Of a stretch of 64,000 bases of DNA, positions 13,291 to 63,687 are shown piece by piece (within the stretch, counting starts at the first letter, position 1; each line of letters begins with the position of its first letter). This DNA is from Bordetella pseudohinzii (GTDB lineage Bacteria > Pseudomonadota > Gammaproteobacteria > Burkholderiales > Burkholderiaceae_B): positions 186,001 to 250,000 of the forward strand of contig NZ_JHEP02000003.1 in the NCBI RefSeq assembly GCF_000657795.2. Direction: 5' to 3'. A program made the translations under genes and the position numbers. The notes below the pieces were generated by a model, which saw only the letters and a program-made list of their open reading frames with translations, was not told where the DNA came from and made no database searches.

Positions 13291-14304
13291 ATGGACCGCA
13301 TCGTTCAACGCTACCGCAAACTCGTTTTCTTCACCTGGTTTCTCACGCTGGACCTGATCATGTTCGGCGCCTTCGTGCGCCTGACGGATTCGGGCCTGGG
13401 CTGTCCGGACTGGCCCGGCTGCTACGGCAAGGTCACGCCGCTGGGCGCGCTGCCCGACATCCACCAGGCCGCCAGCGACATGCCTTTCGGGCCGGTCACC
13501 CTGTCCAAGGCCTGGATCGAAATGATCCACCGCTATGTGGGCGCTTTCCTGGGCATGCTCATCATCGCCATCGTCTACATGGCCTGGCGCTACCGCCGCC
13601 AGCTGGGGCGCTCGCCCGCGCTGGCCACGGTGTCGCTGGCGGCGGTCTGCGTGCAGGGCGCTTTCGGCGCCTGGACGGTCACCCACAAACTCATGCCGGC
13701 CGTGGTGACGGCCCACCTGGTGCTCGGCCTGTCGCTGCTGGCCCTGATGACCTGGCTGGCCGCGCGCGAACGGCCCCATCTGCCCGTGCCGGCCATCGCG
13801 GTCCGGCTGCGGCCCTGGATGGCGGGCGGGCTGGTCCTGCTGGCCGTCCAGGTGACGCTGGGCGGCTGGGTCAGCACCAATTACGCCGCGCTGGCCTGCA
13901 TGGATTTCCCCACCTGCCATGGCCAATGGGCGCCCGAGATGGACTTCCATGGCGGCTTTTCGGTGATCCGGGGCCTGGGCGAGCTGCCCTCGGGAGAGAT
14001 GATTTCCCAGAGCGCGCTGACGGCCATCCACTGGGTGCACCGCAACTTTGCGTTCATTGTCTTTGTCTATATGGGCATCCTGGCCTGGCGCCTGCGCGCG
14101 CTGGCCGGGCTGTCGGGCCCGGGCCGACTGATGCTGGCCTTGCTGGCGGCACAATTGGTGACGGGTCTGACCACGATTTTCTTCCAGTGGCCGCTGCTGA
14201 TCGCCGTGCTGCATAACGGCGGGGCCGCGGGCCTGGTCCTGGCCTCGGTGCTGGCGCTCGTGCGCCTGGCGACGGCGGGCGGTCCGCCGCTGCGCAGGCT
14301 TTGA
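13291..14304 (+). CDS. ctaA: Heme A synthase (COX15/CtaA)
   Basis: A 337-residue, eight-helix inner-membrane enzyme that oxidises the C8 methyl of heme O to the formyl of heme A. Family landmarks: FGAFVRLTDSGLGCPDWPGCYG with the conserved Cys pair, WIEMIHRYVG and VTAHLVLG for the N-terminal heme histidines, then AIHWVHRN and AVLHNGGA for the C-terminal pair. ATG 13291 lies 4 bp after the previous stop. Confidence 0.95.
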   Translation: MDRIVQRYRKLVFFTWFLTLDLIMFGAFVRLTDSGLGCPDWPGCYGKVTPLGALPDIHQAASDMPFGPVTLSKAWIEMIHRYVGAFLGMLIIAIVYMAWRYRRQLGRSPALATVSLAAVCVQGAFGAWTVTHKLMPAVVTAHLVLGLSLLALMTWLAARERPHLPVPAIAVRLRPWMAGGLVLLAVQVTLGGWVSTNYAALACMDFPTCHGQWAPEMDFHGGFSVIRGLGELPSGEMISQSALTAIHWVHRNFAFIVFVYMGILAWRLRALAGLSGPGRLMLALLAAQLVTGLTTIFFQWPLLIAVLHNGGAAGLVLASVLALVRLATAGGPPLRRL

Positions 14305-51754: not shown

Positions 51755-52456
51755 CTAAATACCCAGATAAGTGCGACGGATGTCGTCGTTGGATTCGAGT
51801 TCGGCCGCGCTGCCCTGCATGGCGATGCGGCCGCTTTCCAGAACATAGGCGCGGCCCACCACGCGCAAGGCGCTGGCCACGTTCTGTTCGATCAGCAAAA
51901 CGGAAATGCCCCGGGCGTTGACGGTCATGATGGCCTTGTGCACTTCGTCGACCATCATCGGGGCCAGGCCGTGGCTGGGTTCGTCCAGCAGCAACAGGCG
52001 CGGCCTGGCCATCAGCGCGCGGCAGAAGGCGACCATCTGCTGTTCGCCGCCGGACAGCGTGCCGGCCAGTTGCGCGCGGCGTTCGGCCAGGCGCGGAAAG
52101 AGCGTGAAGCAGGCCTGGATGTCTTCACTCAGGTCCGCGTCGCGCCGGCTGTAGGCGCCCAGCAGCAGATTGTCGTAGACGCTCATCTCGGGGAAGACAT
52201 GGCGGCCTTCCGGCACGCAGGCCACGCCCGCCTGGACGCGGCGGTGCGCGGGCAGCTGGCGCAGGTCGCGGCCCTCGAACTCGATGGCGCCGCCGACCTT
52301 GGGCAGCTGGCCGCAGATGGCGCGGATGAGCGAGGTCTTGCCGGCCGTGTTCGCGCCCAGGATGGCCACGGTCTCGCCGGCGCGCACCTCGATGCTGACG
52401 TCCTGCAGCACCGGGCGCGGCCCATAGCCGCCGCTGAGATTACGTATGCTGAGCAT
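51755..52456 (-). CDS. LivF-type ABC transporter ATPase
   Basis: A 233-residue ATPase: Walker A GANTAGKTSL, canonical signature LSGGEQQMVAFCRAL, Walker B LLLDEPSHGL. The start at 52456 overlaps the end of livG by 17 bp. One of two ATPases of the aldoxime-island importer; separate here, unlike the fused paralogue at 25548. Confidence 0.93.
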   Translation of the reverse strand: MLSIRNLSGGYGPRPVLQDVSIEVRAGETVAILGANTAGKTSLIRAICGQLPKVGGAIEFEGRDLRQLPAHRRVQAGVACVPEGRHVFPEMSVYDNLLLGAYSRRDADLSEDIQACFTLFPRLAERRAQLAGTLSGGEQQMVAFCRALMARPRLLLLDEPSHGLAPMMVDEVHKAIMTVNARGISVLLIEQNVASALRVVGRAYVLESGRIAMQGSAAELESNDDIRRTYLGI

Positions 52457-53171
52457 GGCTGCCTCCCAGATAAGCGGAAATGACGTCCGGATTGGCGGAC
52501 ACTTCGGCCGGCGTGCCATCGGCGATCAGGCGGCCGAAGTTGAGCACCAGCAGGCGCTCGCACAGGCGCATGATGGCGCGCATATGGTGCTCGACGACGA
52601 TGAGGGTGAGACCGTCGCGGTCGCGCAGCTCGCGCAGGGTCGCCATCACCGTATCCATTTCGGGCGGCGTGAGGGCGGCCATCACTTCGTCGAGCAAGAG
52701 GATGCGGGGCTGGGTCGCCAGGGCCCGGGCCACTTCGCCCAGGGCTTTCTGCGGAAAGGTGAGGTCATCGACGTCGGCATGCGCCTCGGCGCGCAGGCCC
52801 ACCTTGTCCAGGCAGTCCCAGGCCAGGGCGCGCGCATCGGCCAGGTTGTGGTGCAGCAGGCCCGCGGTCGTGACGTTCTCCAGCAGGCTCATCTCGGGAA
52901 ACAGCGCCGTGTTCTGGAACGTCTTTGTCATGCCCTGGCGGGCGATGACGTGCGGACGCTTGCGGTCGATGCGCTTGCCGTCGAAGTGGATCCGGCCCGA
53001 GGTGGGGCGGTACAGGCCCACGAGCATGCTGAACAGCGTGGTCTTTCCGGCGCCGTTCGGGCCGATCAGGCCGATGATCTCCTTGGGGCGGATGCTGAAC
53101 GACACATCGTTGACGGCCACCAGGCCGCCGAAGCGGACGGTCAGGTTGCTGGCGATCAGGTTTGCATTCAT
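52440..53171 (-). CDS. LivG-type ABC transporter ATPase
   Basis: A 243-residue ATPase: Walker A GPNGAGKTTLFS, Walker B RILLLDEVMAALTPPE, H-loop VEHHM. The signature position reads LTFPQKALGE (near 139) rather than LSGGQ, so, as in the fused paralogue, the LivG site is degenerate while LivF is canonical. The start overlaps the livM stop (ATGA). Confidence 0.93.
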   Translation of the reverse strand: MNANLIASNLTVRFGGLVAVNDVSFSIRPKEIIGLIGPNGAGKTTLFSMLVGLYRPTSGRIHFDGKRIDRKRPHVIARQGMTKTFQNTALFPEMSLLENVTTAGLLHHNLADARALAWDCLDKVGLRAEAHADVDDLTFPQKALGEVARALATQPRILLLDEVMAALTPPEMDTVMATLRELRDRDGLTLIVVEHHMRAIMRLCERLLVLNFGRLIADGTPAEVSANPDVISAYLGGSHAQHT

Positions 53172-54130
53172 GCGCGCGCTCCTGCCCGCTTGCCGCGGAA
53201 GACCGACACCAGCCCGCGGGGGCGCCAGAGCACGATGGCGATGAGAACGATGCCAAACGTGAAGGGGGCGATGCCGGCGGCCTTGTTGGACAGATAGGTG
53301 TTGAGGATTTCTTCGAGCGGCACGACCACCAGCGCGCCGATGATGGGGCCGGCCAGGGTGCCCACGCCGCCGACGATGGCGATGAGCGCGGCCCGTATCG
53401 AGATGCCGGCGGCGCTGAAGACGCTTTCGGGATCGAAGAAGAAAGTGAACTGCGCGAACAGCGTGCCGGTGGCGGCGGTGAGCGCCGCGGAGATGAGCGC
53501 GCCGATCAGCTTGACCTTGAGCGTGTTGACGCCGGCCACCTCGGCGGCCTCTTCGTTCTCACGCACGGCGCGCAGCAGATAGCCCATCTTGCCGTGGGCC
53601 AGGCAGGCGAAGACCGCCGACACGATGACGAACAGCCCGGTGAACAGGTAGACATAATTGCCCGCGCCGCGGAACTGCATCATGGCCCAGGAATTGCCGA
53701 CGAAAGGCACGGAGATGCCTTGCGGACCGCCGGTGATGCCGGGCAGCGAGGTCGCCAGGATGCGGCAGGCTTCGCCGAAGGCCAGGGTCGCCAGGGCGAA
53801 ATAGGGGCCCTTGAGCCGCATGGTGGGCAGCGCCAGAACGACGGCCGCCAGCATGGCCAGGACCATGCCCAGCAGCATGCCCAGCCAGGGCGTGATGCCC
53901 CACAGGGTTTGCAGCACGGTGGAGGAATAGGCGCCGATGCCGAAGAAGGCCGCGTGGCCGAGCGAGATCTGGTTGGCCAGGCCGCCGACGATGTTCCAGC
54001 ATTGGCCCAGCGTGGCCGCCATGAGCACCAGGCAGAGCACCCGCACGCCATAGCCGCGCGGATCGAGGGCCTGGGACAGGGCCAGCGCGGCCATGGCCGC
54101 CACCGCGATGAGGATCAGGGATTTTTTCAT
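53168..54130 (-). CDS. LivM-type ABC transporter permease
   Basis: A 320-residue permease with about ten helices; CWNIVGGLANQISLGHAAFFGIGAYS is the LivM signature region (shown in part) and GGVGTLAGPIIGALVVVPLEEIL its C-terminal counterpart. ATG 54130 overlaps the livH stop (54127-54129); a longer frame to 54760 lies antisense-free inside livH and is not coding. Confidence 0.93.
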   Translation of the reverse strand: MKKSLILIAVAAMAALALSQALDPRGYGVRVLCLVLMAATLGQCWNIVGGLANQISLGHAAFFGIGAYSSTVLQTLWGITPWLGMLLGMVLAMLAAVVLALPTMRLKGPYFALATLAFGEACRILATSLPGITGGPQGISVPFVGNSWAMMQFRGAGNYVYLFTGLFVIVSAVFACLAHGKMGYLLRAVRENEEAAEVAGVNTLKVKLIGALISAALTAATGTLFAQFTFFFDPESVFSAAGISIRAALIAIVGGVGTLAGPIIGALVVVPLEEILNTYLSNKAAGIAPFTFGIVLIAIVLWRPRGLVSVFRGKRAGARA

Positions 54131-54996
54131 CGTGCCCCCTTGCCCAGCAGGCCCTGCGGACGAAACGCGAGAAAGGTGATGAACACCACGAATAAGGCGA
54201 GGTTCTGCAGCTGTATCGGCATGACGAGGGTGGAGAGCGATTGGATCACGCCGACGATCAGGCCGCCGACCAGCGCGCCCAGCACGCTGCCCAGGCCGCC
54301 CAGCACGACGACGGTGAACATCAGCACCACGAACTGCGCGCCCGCCGTGGGGCTGACGGCCGAGTAGCTCAGGATGACGCCGCCGCCGAAGGCGGTCAGG
54401 CCGGTGCCCAGGCCGAAGGCGATGGCATAGACGGTGCGGGTGTCGATGCCGAACAGCTGCGCGGCATTGGCATTTTGCGAGGTGGCGCGTATGGCGCGGC
54501 CTATCCAGGTGCGCGTCAGCAGCAGCCAGAGCGCGCCGGAGATGGCCAGCGCGGCGATGAAGGCCACGAGATAGGGCACGGAGATGAACAGCGGGCCGAG
54601 TTCCAGCGCGGCGGTCTGGTAAGGCGTGCGCACGGAGCGGAACTCCGAGCCGAAGAGCATCAGCGCGCCGTTCTCGATCACGGCCAGCAGACCGACGGTC
54701 AGGAAGATCTGCGCCACGGGCGGCGCCTTGAGCACATGCTGCACGAGCAGGCGCTGGCACAGCGCGCCGAGGGCGAAGCCCACGGCCAGGGCCACGAAGG
54801 CGCCGAACACCGGGTCCAGGCCCAGGTAGGCCCAGGAGAACCAGGCGGCGTACATGCCTATCATCAGAAATTCCGCCTGCGCGAAATTGACGATCTTGAG
54901 CACGCCGAACACCAGCGACAAGCCGACGGCGATCACGCCGTAGACACCGCCGATCAGCAGCCCGTCAATCAGGGTTTGGAGAAATGCGGAGATCAT
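54127..54996 (-). CDS. LivH-type ABC transporter permease
   Basis: A 289-residue permease with the LivH signature (GGVYGVIAVGLSLVFGVLKIVNFAQAEF in part; VVLGGLGSVLGALVGGL). Translationally coupled to livM; 49 bp after the receptor gene. Confidence 0.94.
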   Translation of the reverse strand: MISAFLQTLIDGLLIGGVYGVIAVGLSLVFGVLKIVNFAQAEFLMIGMYAAWFSWAYLGLDPVFGAFVALAVGFALGALCQRLLVQHVLKAPPVAQIFLTVGLLAVIENGALMLFGSEFRSVRTPYQTAALELGPLFISVPYLVAFIAALAISGALWLLLTRTWIGRAIRATSQNANAAQLFGIDTRTVYAIAFGLGTGLTAFGGGVILSYSAVSPTAGAQFVVLMFTVVVLGGLGSVLGALVGGLIVGVIQSLSTLVMPIQLQNLALFVVFITFLAFRPQGLLGKGAR

Positions 54997-55045
54997 GGAG
55001 TGTCCTGCGGGCCGGCGCGCGCGCCGGCCCTGGGGGGAAGAGGAT

Positions 55046-56218
55046 TTACTTGACTTCGGCGCCCATCCAGCGCGCCGGCGCCTTGGCCGCGCTCTCGGGG
55101 AAGACGGTCACCAGGTCGGCGCCGCGCCATTGCACGAAGATGGGATAGGCGGTCGAGGTCAGGCCCTTGTCGTCGAAGGCCGTGCAGCCGCCCGGGATGC
55201 CGGCCGAGAAGCCGTCGCATTTCTTCAGCGCGGCGACCGCGTTGCGGATCTTGTCCGGATCGGTGGACTTGGCCTGCTGGATGGCGGCGACCATGTGCTG
55301 CAGCGCCGCGCCGTACATGAGGGCTTCGTGGGCCATGAACACGCCGTGCTTGGCCTTGTAGCGCGAGGCGATATCGGGCACGGCGTCGTAGTTGGCCGGC
55401 GCGATCGAGAACACGTCCTCGGCGTACTCGCCCAGGCCCTTCTGGAAGTCGGGCACGATGTAGCCGGCCGCCCCGCCGATGACCGGCATGTTGATCCGCT
55501 GCTGGCGCATGGTGCGGATGATGAGCAGGCCGTCGTTGAAGTACGACACGGGGAAAACCACCTGGGCGTCCGAGCGGCGCAGCTTGTTGACCAGCGGCGC
55601 CACGTCCGTGATGCCCAGGGGATAGCCGTCGTCGATCACGACGTCGACGCCCGCCTTGGCGGCCGCCTTGCGTATGCCTTCGGCCTGCGAGGTGCCGTAG
55701 GCGGTGTCTTCATAGAAGATCGCGATCTTCGACAGTTTGGTGCCTGCCTTGGCGGCGATGTCCAGGGCGTACTGGAACTGCTTCTCGCCGAAGGTCGTGG
55801 CCTTGGGCGCGACCTGGAAGATGTAGCGGTAGCCGCGGCTGGTGATCTGATCCGCGAAGGAGTGGGTGATCATGGGGATGCCGGTGCGCTCGGTGACTTC
55901 CGAGGCCGCCAGCGTGATGGAGCTCACGAAAGCGCCCACGATGCCGACGACTTGGTTCTGGCTCACCAGACGCTGCACGGCCGCGGCGGCCGCGTTGGGG
56001 GCCGGGACATCCGCGTACACCAGCTTGACGTCCAGGCTGCCCAGGCCGGGCTTGATGTCCTGGAGCGCCTGCTCGATGCCGTTCTTGGCGTTGATGCCGA
56101 ACTGCGCATTGGGGCCGCTCAGGGGCAGCACGATGCCGATGTTGACGGTTTCCGCCGAGGCGGCGGCGGGGCCGAGCAAGGCGGCGCCCAATGCAGTCAC
56201 TGCGAGCCAGCGAACCAT
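55046..56218 (-). CDS. Periplasmic receptor of the aldoxime-island Liv transporter
   Basis: A 390-residue type I periplasmic binding protein with a Sec signal (MVRWLAVTALGAALLGPAAASA, cleavage near residue 22) and the LivJ-like opening TVNIGIVLPLSGPNAQFG; IVGAFVSSITLAASEVTER is the ligand-loop region. Start 56218 follows AAGGAG; the extension to 56257 lacks support. First gene of the operon; the ligand may be an aldoxime, a nitrile or a related amino-acid derivative. Confidence 0.92.
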   Translation of the reverse strand: MVRWLAVTALGAALLGPAAASAETVNIGIVLPLSGPNAQFGINAKNGIEQALQDIKPGLGSLDVKLVYADVPAPNAAAAAVQRLVSQNQVVGIVGAFVSSITLAASEVTERTGIPMITHSFADQITSRGYRYIFQVAPKATTFGEKQFQYALDIAAKAGTKLSKIAIFYEDTAYGTSQAEGIRKAAAKAGVDVVIDDGYPLGITDVAPLVNKLRRSDAQVVFPVSYFNDGLLIIRTMRQQRINMPVIGGAAGYIVPDFQKGLGEYAEDVFSIAPANYDAVPDIASRYKAKHGVFMAHEALMYGAALQHMVAAIQQAKSTDPDKIRNAVAALKKCDGFSAGIPGGCTAFDDKGLTSTAYPIFVQWRGADLVTVFPESAAKAPARWMGAEVK

Positions 56219-56270
56219 GTTTTTCTCCTTGGACTGAAATTTTGTGTGCCGCAACAAGCGGCTGAAAGGC

Positions 56271-56299
56271 AGTCTAGGTAGCGTAAAAAATCACGTCAA
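56271..56299 (-). promoter_or_regulatory. Promoter of the receptor-Liv-nitrilase-oxd operon
   Basis: On the minus strand, TTGACG (56299-56294), a 17-base spacer, and TAGACT (56276-56271). Immediately upstream lies TTGTCGAA (complement of 56305-56312), a half-site of the regulator palindrome, which with the degenerate arm at 56293-56300 overlaps the -35. Confidence 0.65.
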
Positions 56300-56350
56300 T
56301 AAAATTCGACAAAATAGGCCGGTTTTCGGCGTTTTCCCCTATAAATATCC

Positions 56351-56380
56351 TTGAAAACAAGCACATTTAGAGGATATATT
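56351..56380 (+). promoter_or_regulatory. Promoter of the TrmB-like regulator gene
   Basis: TTGAAA (56351-56356), an 18-base spacer, and TATATT (56375-56380). The predicted start near 56387 falls inside the palindromic operator, which suggests autorepression. Confidence 0.65.
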
Positions 56381-56381
56381 G

Positions 56382-56401
56382 TTGTCGAAAATATTCGACA
56401 A
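56382..56401 (+). promoter_or_regulatory. Perfect palindromic operator at the TrmB-like regulator gene
   Basis: TTGTCGAA (56382-56389), AATA, TTCGACAA (56394-56401). It lies between the -10 box and the ribosome site of the regulator; a second half-site TTCGACAA is at 56305-56312 near the divergent promoter. No other copy was noticed in the window. Confidence 0.8.
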
Positions 56402-56412
56402 CGGAGACGGTC

Positions 56413-57180
56413 ATGGACATGGACGCGCAACTGCAGGCCCTGGGCCTGGACGAGAAGGAGCGCCGCTTTTATCTCGCCGCCCTGCAGCTGGGCTCGGCGT
56501 CCGTCACGGAAATCGCCACGCGAGCGGGCGTATCGCGCACCAATGGCTATGACCTGCTGGAGCGGCTGGAGCGGCGCGGCCTCGTGGCGCAGGAGGGCGA
56601 GGCGTCCGGCGTGCGCCGGGTGCTGCCGGAGGATCCGCGCGTGCTTATCCGCGACTGGGAGCGCAAGCGGCTCATGCTCGATGAGCTGGTGCCCGAGCTG
56701 CGCTCGCTCTATAACGGCTCGCCCCGCAAGCCGCGCACACGCATCTACGAGGGGGCCGAGGGCATACACCGGGCGCTTTGGGAGACCCTGGACTGCCGCA
56801 GCAAGGTCCTGCTGGGCGTGTTGTCCATGCATGAGCTGCTGGAGGTGCCGGGCGCGCAATGGATGGATGGTTTCATTGCCGAGCGGGTCAAGCGCGGCAT
56901 ACGCCTGAACGTCCTGCGCTCGCCCTCGCGCGAGACCGAGAGCATCTGGCCCAGCAGCGGCGACGAACTGCGCGAGCTGCGCTATGCGCCGGATGATCTC
57001 GATCTGGGCATGACCATGTATATCGCCGACGACAAGGTCACCTATGTCTCGTCCAAGGAGGAGAACTACGCCATGGTCATCGAAAGCCGCGAGCTGGCCT
57101 CCTTGAACCGCTCTTTCTTCCGTTCCTTATGGGCCGTGGCGGGGCAGGCGTCGCGCCTGCCAGGCGCCGCCGGGGCCTAG
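56413..57180 (+). CDS. TrmB-like winged-helix transcriptional regulator
   Basis: A 255-residue regulator: an N-terminal TrmB/HTH winged helix (LDEKERRFYLAALQLGSASVTEIA; GVSRTNGYDLLERLERRGLVAQ), a helical linker, and a C-terminal effector domain (RTRIYEGAEGIHRALWETLD; IYEG motif typical of TrmB/DprA-like domains found with PLD-like folds). TrmB-type regulators are frequent in archaea and less so in proteobacteria, where they sense small ligands. It is divergent from the aldoxime operon and has its own operator. Its TAG stop shares CTAG with the convergent hydrolase gene. Confidence 0.85.
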   Translation: MDMDAQLQALGLDEKERRFYLAALQLGSASVTEIATRAGVSRTNGYDLLERLERRGLVAQEGEASGVRRVLPEDPRVLIRDWERKRLMLDELVPELRSLYNGSPRKPRTRIYEGAEGIHRALWETLDCRSKVLLGVLSMHELLEVPGAQWMDGFIAERVKRGIRLNVLRSPSRETESIWPSSGDELRELRYAPDDLDLGMTMYIADDKVTYVSSKEENYAMVIESRELASLNRSFFRSLWAVAGQASRLPGAAGA

Positions 57181-57836: not shown

Positions 57837-58032
57837 GCCGGGCCCCGGCGGACAGGGGCGGCCAGGCAGGGGAGCTGGCCGGTGGGCGGGGTCATGGGCG
57901 CGGCTTTCATGCTTTCTCCTTGGGGTGTGCTGGCCGCCGGCGGATAATCCGCAGTGTCAGGCCCGCGTGCGCTGCGCGATGGCATGGCGACAAAGTGTAT
58001 TATGAGTGCTTAAAAAACATCAAGCTGCCATT

Positions 58033-58917
58033 ATGCCCCGCCGTTCTTCCTCCCGTCTGGATCTCGCCGGACGCATTTGTGGCTATATCCACGAGCAGCG
58101 GCTCGCGCCGGGCGACCGGGTCAATGAAAAACGCCTGGCCGAATGGCTGGGGGTGTCGCGCACGCCCGTGCGCGCCGCCCTGGAAGAACTGGCCGCTCAT
58201 GGCTATGTCGAGCGCCGCAGCAATCTGGGCATGACGCTGGTCAAGCCGCCGCCCCTGCCGGCGCCCGGCGGCGCCCGCGAGCTGGATGAGCTGGTCCTGC
58301 GCGTGGCGCGCGACCGTCACAAGGGCGTGCTGGCCGAGTTCATCTCCGAGAGCGACCTGATGCAGGCCTATGGCCTGACCCGGCTGCGCGTGCGCGAGGC
58401 CCTGGAGCGGCTGGCGAACCTGGGCGCGGTGGAAAGAAAGCTCGCCAGCGGCTGGCGTTTCCTGGCCGCGCCCTGGGATAGCGAAGCGCGCCGCCAGAGC
58501 TATCAGTTCCGCCTCACGGTGGAGCCCGCCGCCATGCAATTGCCCGGCTTTGCCCTGGCCCCGGCATGGATAGACGATATGCGCCGGCGCCATCAGCGCT
58601 TTCTGCAATCGCCCTGGGACGAGCATGCCAGCATCGAGTTCTTCGAGATGAACGCGGCCTTTCACCTGGGCATCGCCGCGGGCTCGGGCAATCGCCACTT
58701 CGCCGACGTGATCGAGCGGCAGAATATGCTGCGCCGCCTGAGCAACTACGATTGGCGCTACGGTCAGGACCGCGTGCTGGTCAGCACGCGCGAGCATCTG
58801 GAGATCCTGGACAAGCTGGCCGCCGGCGATATCGAGCTGGCCGTGCTGCTCATGCGCCGCCATCTGGAAAGCGCCATGCAAGTGCGTTCCACACCACGGC
58901 AAAATTGTTCTTTATAA
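58033..58917 (+). CDS. GntR-type regulator with two winged-helix domains and an FCD-like domain
   Basis: A 294-residue regulator. A GntR winged helix (ICGYIHEQRLAPGDRVNEKR; LGVSRTPVRAALEELAAHGYVER) is followed, from about residue 75, by a second winged-helix-like segment (LAEFISESDLMQAYGLTRLR; VREALERLANLGAVERK). An FCD-type ligand domain comes next (FFEMNAAFHLGIAAGSGN; STREHLEILDKLAAGDIELA). A doubled DNA-binding region is unusual in GntR proteins. The start at 58033 is chosen over GTG 58006. A 19-bp palindrome overlaps its stop codon. It could control the downstream sulfur gene set. Confidence 0.82.
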   Translation: MPRRSSSRLDLAGRICGYIHEQRLAPGDRVNEKRLAEWLGVSRTPVRAALEELAAHGYVERRSNLGMTLVKPPPLPAPGGARELDELVLRVARDRHKGVLAEFISESDLMQAYGLTRLRVREALERLANLGAVERKLASGWRFLAAPWDSEARRQSYQFRLTVEPAAMQLPGFALAPAWIDDMRRRHQRFLQSPWDEHASIEFFEMNAAFHLGIAAGSGNRHFADVIERQNMLRRLSNYDWRYGQDRVLVSTREHLEILDKLAAGDIELAVLLMRRHLESAMQVRSTPRQNCSL

Positions 58918-58923
58918 GAACAA
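58905..58923 (+). promoter_or_regulatory. Perfect palindrome at the gntR stop, upstream of the TusA-DsrE operon
   Basis: TTGTTCTT (58905-58912), TAT, AAGAACAA (58916-58923), with the gntR TAA inside it. It lies 195 bp before the TusA-like gene. There is no T-run after the hairpin, so an operator is as likely as a terminator. Confidence 0.55.
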
Positions 58924-59117
58924 AATACATTCAAGACCGGAATGTCAGGGGATGCCCGCACTATTGCTGTTGATCTGATGTGGGTAAGATGCCGGTTCCG
59001 GCAGCCGCCTCGGCTGTTTCCCCTTTGTCGCTGATGTGCAAGGTCCTTGCCACCATGACTACACCTACTTCTCCCCGTTCGCCCCTTCCCGTCCGGCTGC
59101 CGCGCGGCTGACGCGCC

Positions 59118-59357
59118 ATGTCCGCGCCGCGCGAAGGCGACGACTTCTGGGACGCCGGCAACATGGGTTGCGGCGAACTCATCCTCAAGTTGCGCAAGCA
59201 TCTGAAGAAAATGCCCGGCCAGCTCATGCGCGTGGTCGCGCACGACGCGGGCGCCATCCATGACATCCCGGCTTTCTGCCGCATGACCCGCAACGAACTG
59301 GAACGCTACGACGCGCAGACCCATACCTTCTGGATACGCTCGCGGCTGGACTGGTAG
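59118..59357 (+). CDS. TusA-like sulfur-carrier protein
   Basis: A 79-residue TusA/SirA-fold protein. The sulfur-carrying Cys is C18 in GNMGCGELILKLRKHL; the usual C-P-x-P is replaced by C-G-E-L, so it belongs to a divergent branch. The C-terminal half ends VVAHDAGAIHDIPAFCRMTRNELE, equivalent to the TusA strand-helix-strand. First gene of a five-gene run. TusA proteins pass persulfide sulfur to acceptors such as DsrE proteins in the cytosol, which fits the next gene. Confidence 0.85.
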   Translation: MSAPREGDDFWDAGNMGCGELILKLRKHLKKMPGQLMRVVAHDAGAIHDIPAFCRMTRNELERYDAQTHTFWIRSRLDW

Positions 59358-59398
59358 ACCCGCTTTGCTGTTTTCACCCCGACCCCTGGAGGCTCAAC

Positions 59399-59761
59399 AT
59401 GGCTGGAAAATTCGTCGTTTCGCTGACCTGCTCCAAGAACGATACCGATAAGGCCACCGTGGCCTTCGTGGTCGCCAATGCCGCGGTGGCTTCCGATAAG
59501 CAGACGGTGGTGTTTCTGTCCATCGAGGGCACGCGCCTGTCCCAGCAGGGCTATGCCGATGATATCCACGAGGCCGGTTTCGCGCCGCTCAAGGAACTGA
59601 TGGACAACTTCGCGGCCGCCGGCGGCGAGATCTATGTCTGCTCGCCCTGCTTCAAGAAACGCGCCCTGGATGAAAACAAGCTGGTGGCCGGCGCCAAGAT
59701 CGTCGGCGGGGCCAAGCTGGTGGAGTTCATGAGCGACGGCGCGCCCAGCATCAGCTACTGA
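59399..59761 (+). CDS. DsrE family sulfur-transfer protein
   Basis: A 120-residue DsrE/F-like protein (FVVSLTCSKNDTDKATVAFVVANAAVA split; VVFLSIEGTRLSQQGY). Conserved cysteines are C81 and C84 in EIYVCSPCFKKRAL, the site that receives sulfur in DsrE/TusD proteins, plus C11. It lies 41 bp after the TusA-like gene with GGAGG upstream. Likely partner of the TusA-like protein in a cytosolic persulfide relay. Confidence 0.9.
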   Translation: MAGKFVVSLTCSKNDTDKATVAFVVANAAVASDKQTVVFLSIEGTRLSQQGYADDIHEAGFAPLKELMDNFAAAGGEIYVCSPCFKKRALDENKLVAGAKIVGGAKLVEFMSDGAPSISY

Positions 59762-59783
59762 TCCTATCCCACCGGGAGACGCC

Positions 59784-60302
59784 ATGCCTGCCCGTCGTTT
59801 GCTGTGCGCGGTATTCGTGCTGGCCGCCCTGGCCTATGTGGCGGCGAGTTATGCCGTGTTCGAGTTGCCCGCCACGGCGGCCGAGGCTGAAGCCTGCGGC
59901 TTTTTGCCGGGCGAATTCGCCGCGGGCGGGGGCCTCGCCTATGAGCGCGCCCAGGCCTGGGCCGTCAGCTTCTTGCGCAAGCAGGAGTATTTCACCGCCA
60001 TCACGGTGGGCCTGGCCCTGGCTTTCATGGCGTTTGCGCTTGCCATCGGGCGGCGCGGCGGCGCGGCCTCGGCCGGCGTGGCCGCCGGCGGCGGCGCGCT
60101 GGCTGTCTCGGCCCTGTGCGTGAGCTGTTTGGCGCCGGCGCTGTCCGTGGTGGGCCTGGGCATCGCGGGCGGCTTTCTGGCCGATGTGCCCAAGTGGCTC
60201 ATCACCTTGAACACGCTGCTGCTGACGGGCTGGGGCGTCCTGTTCCTGTCGCGGCGCGCCCAGGCCTGCGCCCTGCCCCCAGGGCGGGCGGCAAGGGCGT
60301 GA
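59784..60302 (+). CDS. Four-helix membrane protein with a paired-cysteine helix
   Basis: A 172-residue inner-membrane protein: helices at about 5-25, 72-93, 98-117 and 122-160 (the last two adjacent). C-V-S-C (ALCVSCLAPALSVVGLGIA) opens the third helix, a feature that recalls MerT-like thiol/metal transporters but is too short to assign. No family recognised. Operonic position, 22 bp after the DsrE gene, suggests transport or handling of a sulfur species. Confidence 0.75.
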   Translation: MPARRLLCAVFVLAALAYVAASYAVFELPATAAEAEACGFLPGEFAAGGGLAYERAQAWAVSFLRKQEYFTAITVGLALAFMAFALAIGRRGGAASAGVAAGGGALAVSALCVSCLAPALSVVGLGIAGGFLADVPKWLITLNTLLLTGWGVLFLSRRAQACALPPGRAARA

Positions 60303-60321
60303 GACTCATCGGGGACGACGC

Positions 60322-61851
60322 ATGAAAATCCGCTATGCCGCCGCCATGGCGGCCTGTGTGTATGCCTTGCCGGCGGCCGCGCTGGACTATGCCAGCGTGC
60401 TGACGCCGGCGCGGCCCGGCCTGCCGCTGGCCCATCCGATTGCCGCCGGGCCCATCGCGCCGCCGCCTTTCTCGTTGATCGCCGAGCGTCCGGTCAAGCC
60501 GGCCTATGTGCCCGGCTTGCCGGGCCTGCCGCAATATCGCATGGTCACGGATGATTTCGGCCGCAAGATCGCCAAGTACGACGGGGTCTTCATCCGCCAG
60601 AGCCGCGTGGAGAACGGCGAAGTGGTGATCCCGCCGGGCGGCCTCTATTACCTGGAGGACACCTGGGGCGGCGAGGTGGCGTTGCGCGGCGAGCAAGTGC
60701 CCATGCTGGGCCGCCTGGCGACCTTCATCGACTACGACATGTCGATCGAAGTCCAGGAGAATGTCAGCATCCCGGCCGGCGGCAGCGTGGCCGTGGGCGG
60801 CCAGGTCTACCAGTACTACGCGACGGTGGGCCATGAAACCCTGGCCAACCACGCGCTGCATGTGCGCACCATCGCGGGAACCGACTGGGAATGGGCCTTC
60901 GGCAATCCCATCCTCTCCAATAACGAAACCAACTGGTGGGGCGCGCGCTTTAACCAACTCTACAACCAGGGCCAGGCGCGCGAGATCAGCCCGCAGAAGC
61001 TGGTGTTCGATTGGCTGAGCGGCGTGCGCACCGACCGCATGCTCTATGCCGAGGAGAACATTCACGCGGGCCTGGCCGGCGTGGGCGAGCAATGGCGGAT
61101 CGGGACGCGCGCGCTGCGCGTGGCCGCCGTGGGCGCGGACACGGTCACCCTGGAGCTGCTCGAAGGCGGCCAGGTGGTCAAGACGCGCACCTTGGGGCCC
61201 ATACGCCCAGAGCGGCTGATCGAGGACACCGAGGCGCGCAAGGCCTTGCTGTTCGAGGATGGCGACATGGCGGTTTTTCTGTCGCCCTGGCCCGGCGCCT
61301 TCGAGGGCGGCAAGGCCAATCTCAAGGTCTATGGCAAGGCCTACAGCCTGGCCTATGGCGCGGACTACGCGCGCGACACGCGCTATGCCAGCTATCCGGT
61401 GGGCTGCCCCACCGGGCATCAGTTCGGCTTCATGCTGGTCAACAAGGACACCATACGGCTCAAACCGGGCCAGGCGCATGCCGGTCCGGAAGGGTATTTC
61501 AAGATCGTGGTCGACGCCGTCGCCGACGGCAGGGTCACGGCCTGGCATATCGAGGACCGCGAGGGCGCGCGCTCCATCAACCTGGGCGGCCCGGACGTGG
61601 AGAATGTCGACCTGGTGCTTGGCCAGGGCCGCGTGGCCGGGCAGGCCATGCTCTTCGATGTCGGGCGCGCGATGCTGGCGCGCAGCTATGCCGCCGCGCG
61701 GCGCGCCGACGCGGGCGCGGCGACCGCGCCCAGGGCGCCCGTCGTGCCCCAGTCCGCCGCGGCCTGGCCGCCGTCGCTCATCATCGTCATCGCCATCCTT
61801 GCCCTGGCCTGCCTGGGCGTGGGTTTCGAGTGGGGGCGGCGCCGCCGCTAG
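60322..61851 (+). CDS. Exported, C-terminally membrane-anchored beta-rich protein
   Basis: A 509-residue protein with a signal peptide (cleavage near AAA-LD, about residue 21), a large extracytoplasmic domain, an Ala/Pro linker and one C-terminal helix (about 483-503) followed by RRRR, so it is anchored with the domain outside. One cysteine (PVGCPTGHQFG) is in the mature domain. The segment GEQWRIGTRALRV ... TVTLELLEGGQVVKTR weakly recalls the archaeal S-layer duplication domain, but this is only a resemblance from memory. The function is unknown; its place between the sulfur-relay genes is the main clue. Confidence 0.75.
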   Translation: MKIRYAAAMAACVYALPAAALDYASVLTPARPGLPLAHPIAAGPIAPPPFSLIAERPVKPAYVPGLPGLPQYRMVTDDFGRKIAKYDGVFIRQSRVENGEVVIPPGGLYYLEDTWGGEVALRGEQVPMLGRLATFIDYDMSIEVQENVSIPAGGSVAVGGQVYQYYATVGHETLANHALHVRTIAGTDWEWAFGNPILSNNETNWWGARFNQLYNQGQAREISPQKLVFDWLSGVRTDRMLYAEENIHAGLAGVGEQWRIGTRALRVAAVGADTVTLELLEGGQVVKTRTLGPIRPERLIEDTEARKALLFEDGDMAVFLSPWPGAFEGGKANLKVYGKAYSLAYGADYARDTRYASYPVGCPTGHQFGFMLVNKDTIRLKPGQAHAGPEGYFKIVVDAVADGRVTAWHIEDREGARSINLGGPDVENVDLVLGQGRVAGQAMLFDVGRAMLARSYAAARRADAGAATAPRAPVVPQSAAAWPPSLIIVIAILALACLGVGFEWGRRRR

Positions 61852-61871
61852 CCCGCAGGAGGAGTCCCGAT

Positions 61872-63368
61872 ATGCAAGCCCTGCCCCGGCATGAACACAG
61901 CCCCGATGTCAGTTTCGACGGCGGCGATCTGGATTGCGGCAATGGTTTGCTGCTGCTGATCCGCAAGCACATCGATCCCCTGCCGCGCGGCGGCTTGCTG
62001 GAAATCCTTTCGCGCGAAATCTCCGTGGACGAGGACCTGCCGGCCTGGTGCAGGCTGACGGGCAATGAACTGGTCTCCTGGACCCAGCAGGACGGGCAGC
62101 GCAGCTTTCTGGTGTGCAAGGGCGCGCTGGCCGAACGCCAGGCGCCCGCCGCCCCGGCCAAAGCGCCCCGGCCGGCCGAACCGCGCCAGGCGCCGCGCCA
62201 GCGCATCGCCGCGCCGCCCCTGCCGCCGCTGGCCGTCACCGGCATGGGCAGCTGGCCCCGGCCGCGCTGGATGATAGAGGCCATGCACGCCCATGTGCAG
62301 GGCCGCCTGTCGGAGGCGGCTTTCCAGGAGACGGCCGACGACGCCGTGCGCCTGGCCGTGGCCGCGCAGGAGCAGGCCGGCGTGGACATGATCACCGATG
62401 GCGAACAGCGCCGCGACAGCTATGCCAGCTTCGTGGCCTCGCGGCTGGACAACTGCCAGCTGATTCCGCTGACCGATCTGCTGCCCCTGGTCGACGATCC
62501 CGAGGCCTTCGCCGCCGAGCTGCGCGCGCTGGACATCCCCGCCGGCGAAGTGCGGCATCCGGCCGTCTTCGGCCGGCTGGCGCGCTCGCGCCCGCTGGTG
62601 GCGCACGAGGTCGATTTCGCGCGATCCGTCACGGGCAAACCGGTAAAGGTGGCCTTGCCCGGTCCCTATCTGCTGACGCGCACCATGTGGATGGAGTGCA
62701 TCTCCGACCGCGCCTACGACAACCGCGAAGCGCTGGCGGCCGACATCGTGCGGGTGTTGCGCCAGGAGCTGGCCGAACTGCTGGACGCCGGCGCGGCCCT
62801 GGTGCAATTGGACGAGCCCGTGCTGTCCGAGGTGGTGTTCTCCGGCGCCAAGAACAAGCGCAGCTTTATGTGCGGTGCGCTGTCCGAATCGCTGGCGCCC
62901 GCGCAAGAGCTGGCCTTCGCGCGCGACCTGCTCAACGCCGTGCTCGACGGCATGCCGCAGGAGCGCACCGCCCTGCATGTCTGCCGGGGCAATTGGACAC
63001 CGGACGAAAGCGTGGCGCTGTCGGGCGATTACGCACCCCTGCTGCCCACGCTGGCGCAGGTGCGCGTGGGCGCCTATCTGCTGGAGATGTGCACGCCGCG
63101 CGCCGGCGACGTGGCCATGCTCAAGGCCCTGCCCGATCATGCCCGCATCGGCATCGGCGTGGTCAATCAAAAAGATCCGGCCATCGAGTCCGAAGACGCG
63201 GTGGCCGCGCGCATCGAGCGCGGCATCGGCCTGTTCGGCCGCGACCGGCTGCTGCTGCATCCGGATTGCGGCTTTGCCACTTTTGCGGACAACCCGATCT
63301 GTTCGGCCGGAATCGCCCAGCAGAAACTGGCCGTGATCGCCCAGGCGGCCGGGCGGTTCGCGCGATGA
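61872..63368 (+). CDS. TusA-like domain fused to cobalamin-independent methionine synthase (MetE) catalytic domain
   Basis: A 498-residue fusion. Residues 12-85 are a second TusA-like domain (C22 in DLDCGNGLLLLIRKHI; C60; C82), again without the C-P-x-P proline. An Ala/Pro linker (86-117) leads to the MetE C-terminal TIM barrel (about 118-495: TGMGSWPR; GVDMITDGEQRRDSY; PGPYLLTR; LDEPVLSE). All four zinc ligands are present: H369 and C371 (LHVCRGN), E405 (LLEMCTP) and C466 (HPDCGF). The MetE N-terminal half is absent, as in core-MetE enzymes that use methyl donors other than folylpolyglutamate. AGGAGG precedes ATG 61872. Methyl transfer to a protein-bound or low-molecular thiol is a plausible role; unproven. 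Confidence 0.88.
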   Translation: MQALPRHEHSPDVSFDGGDLDCGNGLLLLIRKHIDPLPRGGLLEILSREISVDEDLPAWCRLTGNELVSWTQQDGQRSFLVCKGALAERQAPAAPAKAPRPAEPRQAPRQRIAAPPLPPLAVTGMGSWPRPRWMIEAMHAHVQGRLSEAAFQETADDAVRLAVAAQEQAGVDMITDGEQRRDSYASFVASRLDNCQLIPLTDLLPLVDDPEAFAAELRALDIPAGEVRHPAVFGRLARSRPLVAHEVDFARSVTGKPVKVALPGPYLLTRTMWMECISDRAYDNREALAADIVRVLRQELAELLDAGAALVQLDEPVLSEVVFSGAKNKRSFMCGALSESLAPAQELAFARDLLNAVLDGMPQERTALHVCRGNWTPDESVALSGDYAPLLPTLAQVRVGAYLLEMCTPRAGDVAMLKALPDHARIGIGVVNQKDPAIESEDAVAARIERGIGLFGRDRLLLHPDCGFATFADNPICSAGIAQQKLAVIAQAAGRFAR

Positions 63369-63423
63369 CCGGGCCGCGGGGCGCCCGCAAGGCTATGATG
63401 GCGCACCCCGGACTGGAATCATC

Positions 63424-63687
63424 ATGAATAAATACGACCTCGAAAAGAACAAGGCCCTGAAGCTGGCCGGCCAGCTGCGCCAGGGCGGCACGCCCGGCCG
63501 CTTCGGCGCCGGCCAGGCCCCCGACCGGCGCGAGCAGCGCAAGCTGGACCAGGCCGCCGGCCTGGTGCCCTTCGCGCTCAAGCTGCCCCAGGCCCAGGCC
63601 GAACGCCTGCGGGCGCTGGCCCAGGAGCGCGGCGTCTCGACCAACGACATCGTCGCCGAGCTGCTGCAAAAAGCGCTGGACGCCTGA
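63424..63687 (+). CDS. Small hypothetical protein with ribbon-helix-helix-like C-terminus
   Basis: An 87-residue basic protein. The C-terminal 40 residues (PFALKLPQAQAERLRALAQERG; STNDIVAELLQKAL) look like a ribbon-helix-helix unit; the N-terminus is polar and Gly-rich. No named family. It lies 6 bp before the YaiI-family gene and is probably co-transcribed. Confidence 0.65.
   Translation: MNKYDLEKNKALKLAGQLRQGGTPGRFGAGQAPDRREQRKLDQAAGLVPFALKLPQAQAERLRALAQERGVSTNDIVAELLQKALDA

Follow-up and report, generated by a model that had tools for sequence, protein, structure and literature searches.

A TusA–DsrE–MetE-core operon of Bordetella pseudohinzii as a candidate selenium-supply relay to SelD

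Introduction

TusA and DsrE proteins are classical sulfur carriers. How bacteria take up selenium selectively when sulfur is so much more abundant, and which donor hands it to SelD, are to our knowledge long-standing open questions. A tie between a TusA-family carrier and SelD has been described for YedF (TIGR03527), a TusA/SirA-like family that is linked to selD by species distribution and gene neighborhood and tracks it in 21 of 21 species (PMC2276186). Reviews count a DsrE-like selenoprotein among the selenium proteins, and YedF is named there as well. Here we describe a five-gene operon at positions 59118 to 63368 of a 64,000-nucleotide stretch of Bordetella pseudohinzii DNA (contig NZ_JHEP02000003.1, positions 186,001 to 250,000 of the forward strand; this whole stretch is called the window below). 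It encodes a TusA-like carrier, a DsrE-family protein, a membrane protein, an exported protein and a TusA-like domain fused to a MetE core (hereafter, the fusion). On balance we lean toward reading this operon as a relay that would bring in selenium and feed it to SelD.

Two further systems come close. In selenium-starved Methanococcus maripaludis, the TusA/TusD transcripts rise by 4.5 to 4.6 log2, and the SdmABC methyl-selenide methyltransfer system is upregulated as well; the authors of that paper attribute the Tus change to tRNA thiolation and find the reason for it not obvious (PMC11097638). SdmABC resembles the proposed relay in that methyl transfer takes part in selenium acquisition and is induced together with TusA/TusD. 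However, Sdm works through a corrinoid protein and coenzyme M, whereas the methyl-transfer part of the window operon would be a zinc MetE core, and no corrinoid domain was found by Pfam in the five operon proteins. The core methionine synthases MesA to MesD (core-MetE) are folate-free MetE cores with the same homocysteine-binding and zinc residues as the fusion. The fusion differs from them in the TusA domain placed in front of the core, in its DsrE and TusA partners and in its selenium-gene context; a term search of PMC7857596 found TusA, DsrE, “fusion” and “fused” all absent. In contrast to YedF, the operon has TusA and DsrE as separate genes and a second TusA fused to the MetE core, and an NCBIfam scan gave no match to TIGR03527 at E values of up to 1 for gene 1, gene 2 or the fusion.

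In the open full-text literature, with subscription papers largely outside, we found neither this gene set nor a MetE core fused to TusA described, and no selenium role reported for such a fusion, in agreement with a first-pass annotation of the window that knew of no pathway with this set.

Results

Selenium genes adjoin the fusion in three lineages

All five open reading frames (ORFs) lie on the plus strand and are separated, in order, by 41, 22, 19 and 20 bp, as expected from the first-pass annotation, which had listed five codirectional genes with gaps of 19 to 41 bp. One genome per species was scanned, and 146 relatives were recovered. The best 80 of these 146, plus two of three Paracoccus plasmid hits, form the 82 loci analyzed here; L044 begins within the fusion, L053 and L065 belong to one genome, and L076 stands outside the genome searches. 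The best 80 relatives come from Alpha- and Betaproteobacteria, Binatia, Rokubacteria, Planctomycetota, one deltaproteobacterial metagenome-assembled genome (MAG) and one Obscuribacterales MAG. Relatives with the same gene order occur in many genera, with 41 to 98% identity depending on the gene, and the five-gene set is therefore not a product of chance; to this extent, the relay operon with a TusA–MetE fusion and envelope parts proposed in the first-pass annotation is supported, as a conserved chalcogen relay.

Selenium genes were linked to the fusion in 6 of the 82 loci, distributed over three lineages, where 0.3 to 0.6 loci would be expected if one or two sel clusters were placed at random in 5-Mb genomes (rough Poisson P of 0.004 to 0.02 for three lineages). 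In a Bradyrhizobiaceae MAG (L056), the genes for TusA, DsrE, the membrane protein, the exported protein and the fusion are followed on the same strand by selD, which begins about 130 bp past the fusion. The converging strand carries a GcvH-like gene, a second DsrE gene, a lipoyl-ligase gene (LplA-B_cat, 7e-40), two ORFs, tRNA-Sec, selB, selA, fdhE and fdhI, and an fdhB-like gene also stands beside the selenium genes. In four Paracoccus loci (L032, L033, L060 and L073), selA and a thioredoxin-reductase-like gene (trxB) lie directly downstream of the fusion. tRNA-Sec is present in L032, L033 and L060, as is a SufS-type cysteine desulfurase near the fusion, and selB is present in L032 and L033. 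The Paracoccus ferrooxidans locus (L033) also encodes a UGSC-family selenoprotein at positions 13300 to 14065 on the minus strand, which is publicly annotated as only 95 amino acids because the TGA for selenocysteine (Sec) was taken as a stop. In a betaproteobacterial MAG (L053), the distance from the fusion to tRNA-Sec and selB is about 1 kb.

A GcvH-like gene and a second DsrE gene stand between tRNA-Sec/selB and the TusA–DsrE–fusion triad in both L053 (12196 to 13139) and L056 (11054 to 12718), two unrelated lineages, and a lipoate carrier may belong to the selenium relay. The sHdr-LbpA route of sulfur oxidation combines HdrC1B1AC2B2 and a lipoate-binding protein with TusA/DsrE. A fourth candidate, the “SelB” of L068, was dropped, as it was just a GTP_EFTU fragment at a contig end.

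The fdhB-, fdhI- and fdhE-like genes that adjoin the selenium genes in L056 would also suit a one-carbon or formate module, in which a methyl group is oxidized to formate, a Sec-containing formate dehydrogenase explains the selenium genes, and TusA and DsrE may supply sulfur for the molybdenum cofactor. The host itself has such an enzyme: 40 to 50 kb downstream on its contig, outside the window (L127:1133-11336), lies an operon with formate dehydrogenase, fdhB, fdhI, fdhE, selA, selB, tRNA-Sec and selD, and fdhA has an in-frame TGA in the context VRV-U-HGPT. In L056, however, selD lies downstream of the fusion on the fusion strand, whereas the fdh genes are on the opposite strand. The Paracoccus stretches gave no FdhB, FdhI or FdhE match but have selA and trxB, with the UGSC selenoprotein in L033, and one fusion genome (G168) has a long-ORF SelD and no SelA match. 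We consider a formate module improbable.

SelD accompanies the fusion across genomes

A SelD match over the cut-off was found in 77 of the 82 fusion genomes (39 of 39 in the first batch, 34 of 39 in the second and 4 of 4 that came from the family draw only), compared with 2 of 14 control genomes; two of the 34 second-batch matches are partial genes at contig-like ends (G865 and G867). SelA was present in 35 of 39 fusion genomes. Within the Xanthobacter tagetidis family, the fusion occurs in 12 of 159 genomes and SelD in 77 of 159, and all 12 fusion genomes have both (hypergeometric P = 1.0e-4, with phylogeny ignored). A draw across the phylum, with SelD in 129 of 398 genomes, was set aside as a co-occurrence test, as it offers no contrast: the fusion occurred in 1 of 398 genomes, the window's own. 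The physical and phylogenetic links to selD, selA, selB and tRNA-Sec point to selenium, not to sulfur as the first-pass annotation had assumed, and the cargo of the relay is probably selenium.

A TusA–DsrE–fusion core with optional envelope genes

Genes for TusA and DsrE lie upstream of the fusion in 65 of the 82 loci, and DsrE in 76; some of the missing copies reflect contig ends. Between DsrE and the fusion, 26 loci have no large insert and 25 have the membrane/exported pair; one locus has the membrane gene alone, and three could be placed in none of these classes. The exported gene is present only alongside the membrane gene (both in 26 loci, the membrane gene alone in 1). One truncated membrane-protein copy (L042) was counted as membrane gene only and excluded from alignments A2 and A4, and in L075 the pair lies upstream of DsrE. 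Genes for a PhnD-like binding protein and/or a PhnE-like permease, as in PhnCDE-type ATP-binding cassette (ABC) transporters, precede the fusion in 27 of the 82 loci and are absent from the window; DsrE was not found in four of these 27 (L066, L067, L083 and L085). Since L043, counted among the 25, has both the membrane/exported pair and the ABC cassette, the two cassettes are interchangeable or additive and not strictly exclusive. Judged from gene content, TusA, DsrE and the fusion make up the core machine, to which the membrane/exported pair is an optional addition, one of two import-like cassettes. The co-occurrence suggested earlier for the five genes thus holds for the core, whereas the envelope genes follow only in part, with 25 of 82 loci having them in the slot.

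The fusion is patchy in the host's family (4 of 151 genomes; 3 of the 7 listed for its genus). A fragment from Bordetella hinzii LMG 13501 (L044) is 98% identical to the window fusion over residues 101 to 498. Close to the triad, a transglutaminase-like gene turns up repeatedly, in Paracoccus (L032, L033:14469-15575 and L060) and in planctomycete, deltaproteobacterial and rokubacterial MAGs (L081, L089, L094 and L108), its identity being profile tested in L033 and L094 only.

Cysteines of the two small carriers are near-invariant

Gene 1 (59118 to 59357, plus strand) encodes a TusA-like carrier of 79 amino acids whose TusA domain scores 41 bits (1.8e-10) against a Pfam cut-off of 28.6, and C18, within a C-G-x-x motif, and C54 are kept in at least 97% of the 67-row alignment. 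Gene 2 (59399 to 59761, plus strand) encodes a DsrE-family protein of 120 amino acids (Pfam DsrE, 55 bits, 1.1e-14; cut-off, 22.7), and both cysteines of its C81-S-P-C84 motif are kept in at least 97% of the 77-row alignment. The active-site motif of TusA is C-P-x-P. Both TusA-like domains of the operon carry C-G in its place, near-invariant in homologues, and for this reason we call them TusA-like; neither reaches the 78-bit cut-off of the TusA equivalog PRK00299 in NCBIfam (36.9 and 22.5 bits). Near-invariant cysteines occur in all five protein families in alignments of homologues. Selenocysteine within the relay proteins themselves was considered and rejected, as tblastn alignments of homologues showed no in-frame TGA at the Cys positions.

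The fusion keeps the homocysteine and zinc sites of MetE

The fusion gene (61872 to 63368, plus strand) was assigned by Pfam, an alignment with three PDB entries and an 83-row conservation alignment. Its C-terminal part matches Meth_synt_2 (104 bits, 1.2e-29), and a Meth_synt_1 match inside the same stretch (23.1 bits) is below the cut-off of 27. The N-terminal folate domain of MetE is absent, and a linker joins the core to a TusA-like domain at about residues 9 to 84, which at 26.6 bits falls just short of the Pfam cut-off of 28.6. In this domain C22 and C60 are kept in at least 97% of the 83 rows, as are, in the core, H369, C371, E405 and C466, which we take to be the zinc ligands. In an alignment with 3rpd, 1ypx and 1xpg, S127, E178 and D314 of the fusion align with Ser22, Glu73 and Asp188 of MesD (constant offset of 3, own count), residues that adjoin selenomethionine in 3RPD (PMC7857596). 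Since the residues of this homocysteine/methionine site are kept, a homocysteine/methionine-type substrate is likely. The MetE-core methyl transfer put forward in the first-pass annotation accords with this: the residues that bind homocysteine or methionine in MetE and MesD are conserved, and they are in keeping with a homocysteine-type substrate that either receives or gives up a methyl group.

The fusion does not reach any curated methionine-synthase equivalog in NCBIfam (best, PRK04326 with 171 bits against a cut-off of 406). A MetH activation domain was found in 36 of 39 fusion genomes, which rules out the fusion as sole methionine synthase there and makes methionine auxotrophy not decisive for the role of the operon.

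The envelope proteins outline a possible import path

Gene 3 (59784 to 60302, plus strand) encodes a membrane protein of 172 amino acids with four hydrophobic segments by hydropathy, and its C38, C112, C115 and C162 are kept in at least 97% of aligned homologues. Hydropathy places these cysteines in the first loop, within helix 3 and past helix 4, and assuming the N-in topology that we infer, we propose that they could form a Cys path leading from the periplasm into the cytoplasm. The members share no Pfam family, and no sequence or fold match was found in the PDB; the structural model has a mean predicted local distance difference test score (pLDDT) of 71 and is poor around helix 3, the site of two of the cysteines.

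Gene 4 (60322 to 61851, plus strand) encodes a beta-rich protein of 509 amino acids that is predicted to be exported and has one C-terminal hydrophobic segment as an anchor, characterized by alignment, an AlphaFold2 model, Foldseek and VIA. It carries an invariant C362-P-x-G-H366 motif, with C362 and H366 kept in at least 97% of aligned homologues. The AlphaFold2 model (mean pLDDT, 79.7) matches 3u2g, the DUF1608 domain of a Methanosarcina S-layer protein (MA0829), with a Foldseek E value of 1.5e-6 and a Z score of 8.9 (root mean square deviation of 7.1 over 218 residues), and weak S-layer Pfam matches occur in 3 to 4 of 27 members. The modeled fold may thus resemble that of the archaeal S-layer domain. 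Unlike MA0829, the window protein is proteobacterial, is anchored once and has the invariant CPxGH motif, and identity in the structural alignments is 11 to 14%. The four-helix membrane protein and the C-terminal anchor of gene 4 noted in the first pass were both recovered by hydropathy, the TusA-like, DsrE and fusion assignments by Pfam (the fusion's TusA domain slightly under the cut-off, with its Cys kept), and the two C-G contexts and C81/C84 of DsrE as near-invariant positions.

In outline, the Cys-lined four-helix protein may resemble a MerT-type thiol path, and sequence does not fix the direction of transport. Both points would also fit a detoxification system, in which the relay and the MetE core would attach methyl groups to surplus selenium, sulfur or a thiophilic metal and the envelope proteins would export the product. 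However, the 27 loci with an ABC transporter before the fusion have a substrate-binding protein and are thus of the importer type, and pairing with selD and selA is biosynthetic, which makes export very unlikely.

Genes and signals flanking the operon

A consensus scan of the plus strand from 58900 to 63500 found no promoter- or terminator-like sites, either between the genes or upstream, at the level of a simple scan, and no RNA elements were found in the window operon. Directly upstream, positions 58006 to 58917 hold a GntR/FCD regulator gene with two helix-turn-helix stretches. It was dropped as a candidate regulator of the operon, as it had no tblastn match at 1e-8 in the 82 loci. A small ribbon-helix-helix-like ORF directly downstream (63424 to 63687) matches only Bordetella L034 and L044 and, at 52%, L080. 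Further upstream, positions 51755 to 57180 appear, from the ORF list, to encode a branched-chain-amino-acid-type ABC transporter and a divergent TrmB-like regulator.

Discussion

Our reading is that the operon may supply selenium to SelD, in the direction from import to SelD. The envelope step would import a selenium compound, through the S-layer-like exported protein and the Cys-lined membrane protein in the window and, elsewhere, through an ABC transporter of the PhnD/E/C type. The selenium would then travel on DsrE and the small TusA as a Cys-bound perselenide and end at SelD, which makes selenophosphate for selenocysteine or selenouridine. For the fusion, we tentatively suggest that its MetE domain demethylates methylated selenium onto homocysteine, because the homocysteine and zinc sites are kept, the folate domain is missing, the fused TusA is a natural acceptor and there is precedent. 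Zinc-activated homocysteine would accept the methyl group from a methylated selenium compound, yielding methionine, and the freed selenide would be caught by a Cys of the fusion's TusA domain. Taken to its full extent, this would be a cobalamin-free pathway for methylated selenium, in which the fusion demethylates onto homocysteine and keeps the selenide on its TusA Cys, a membrane-spanning relay leads to SelD, and importers are interchangeable; we regard this complete scheme as doubtful.

Several observations weigh against a selenium relay. No sel genes were found in the fetched stretch of 76 of the 82 loci, and in the host genome the sel genes lie 45 to 49 kb from the operon, with none in the operon's own locus. 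Five of the 82 fusion genomes, all MAGs (L063, L080, L094, L097 and L101), have no SelD match, and 4 of 39 have no SelA. SelD is common in the order to which the host belongs (27 of its 33 rows in the phylum draw) and in Paracoccus (94 of 101 genomes, with the fusion in 1 of 101), so that co-occurrence carries no weight there; the Paracoccus draw was accordingly rejected as a test, and the within-family contrast comes from the Xanthobacter family only. What these genomes truly share could be Sec-formate dehydrogenase. One PhnD-like protein reaches 82 bits against the 250-bit cut-off of the “putative selenate” family TIGR04553 and scores higher on PhnD (153 bits), where the cut-off of 261 is not reached either; by profile, it is a binder of the general phosphonate type. 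The chemistry of the operon is read from its sequence. Finally, in six Binatia loci (L106 and L109 to L113), in which no separate TusA gene was found, the DsrE and fusion genes point away from neighboring genes for MetY, MetX, MetW and a phosphorylase.

The Binatia neighbors favor a sulfur-based, folate-independent methionine system, in which DsrE and TusA, as classical sulfur carriers, would bear sulfur or a methylthio group, methionine would be the product or the substrate of the MetE core, and the selenium genes would be bystanders; the conserved homocysteine- and zinc-site residues agree with it. A supply of homocysteine would, however, suit the demethylation model as well, and apart from MetX, MetW and MetY, no organosulfur genes were recognized in the neighbor clusters inspected, most of which are unannotated. 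With MetH in nearly all fusion genomes examined for it, another methionine synthase is at hand. An Rfam scan of 20 of the 82 loci returned only tRNAs, methionine, S-adenosylmethionine (SAM) and cobalamin riboswitches remaining below threshold. A methionine system also leaves unexplained the fusion–selD and fusion–selA gene order and the contrast within the Xanthobacter family, and we think it unlikely. The first-pass annotation is thus partly supported, and the selenium link is what it had missed.

With its invariant cysteines and its presence in culturable species, such as Paracoccus versutus, Xanthobacter tagetidis and Nitrospirillum amazonense, the operon makes the question of selenium supply to SelD directly testable. 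Should the methyl step hold true, the pathway would be the B12-free equivalent, in bacteria, of the SdmABC route of methanogens, and it would link the methylated selenium of soils and waters to selenoprotein synthesis.

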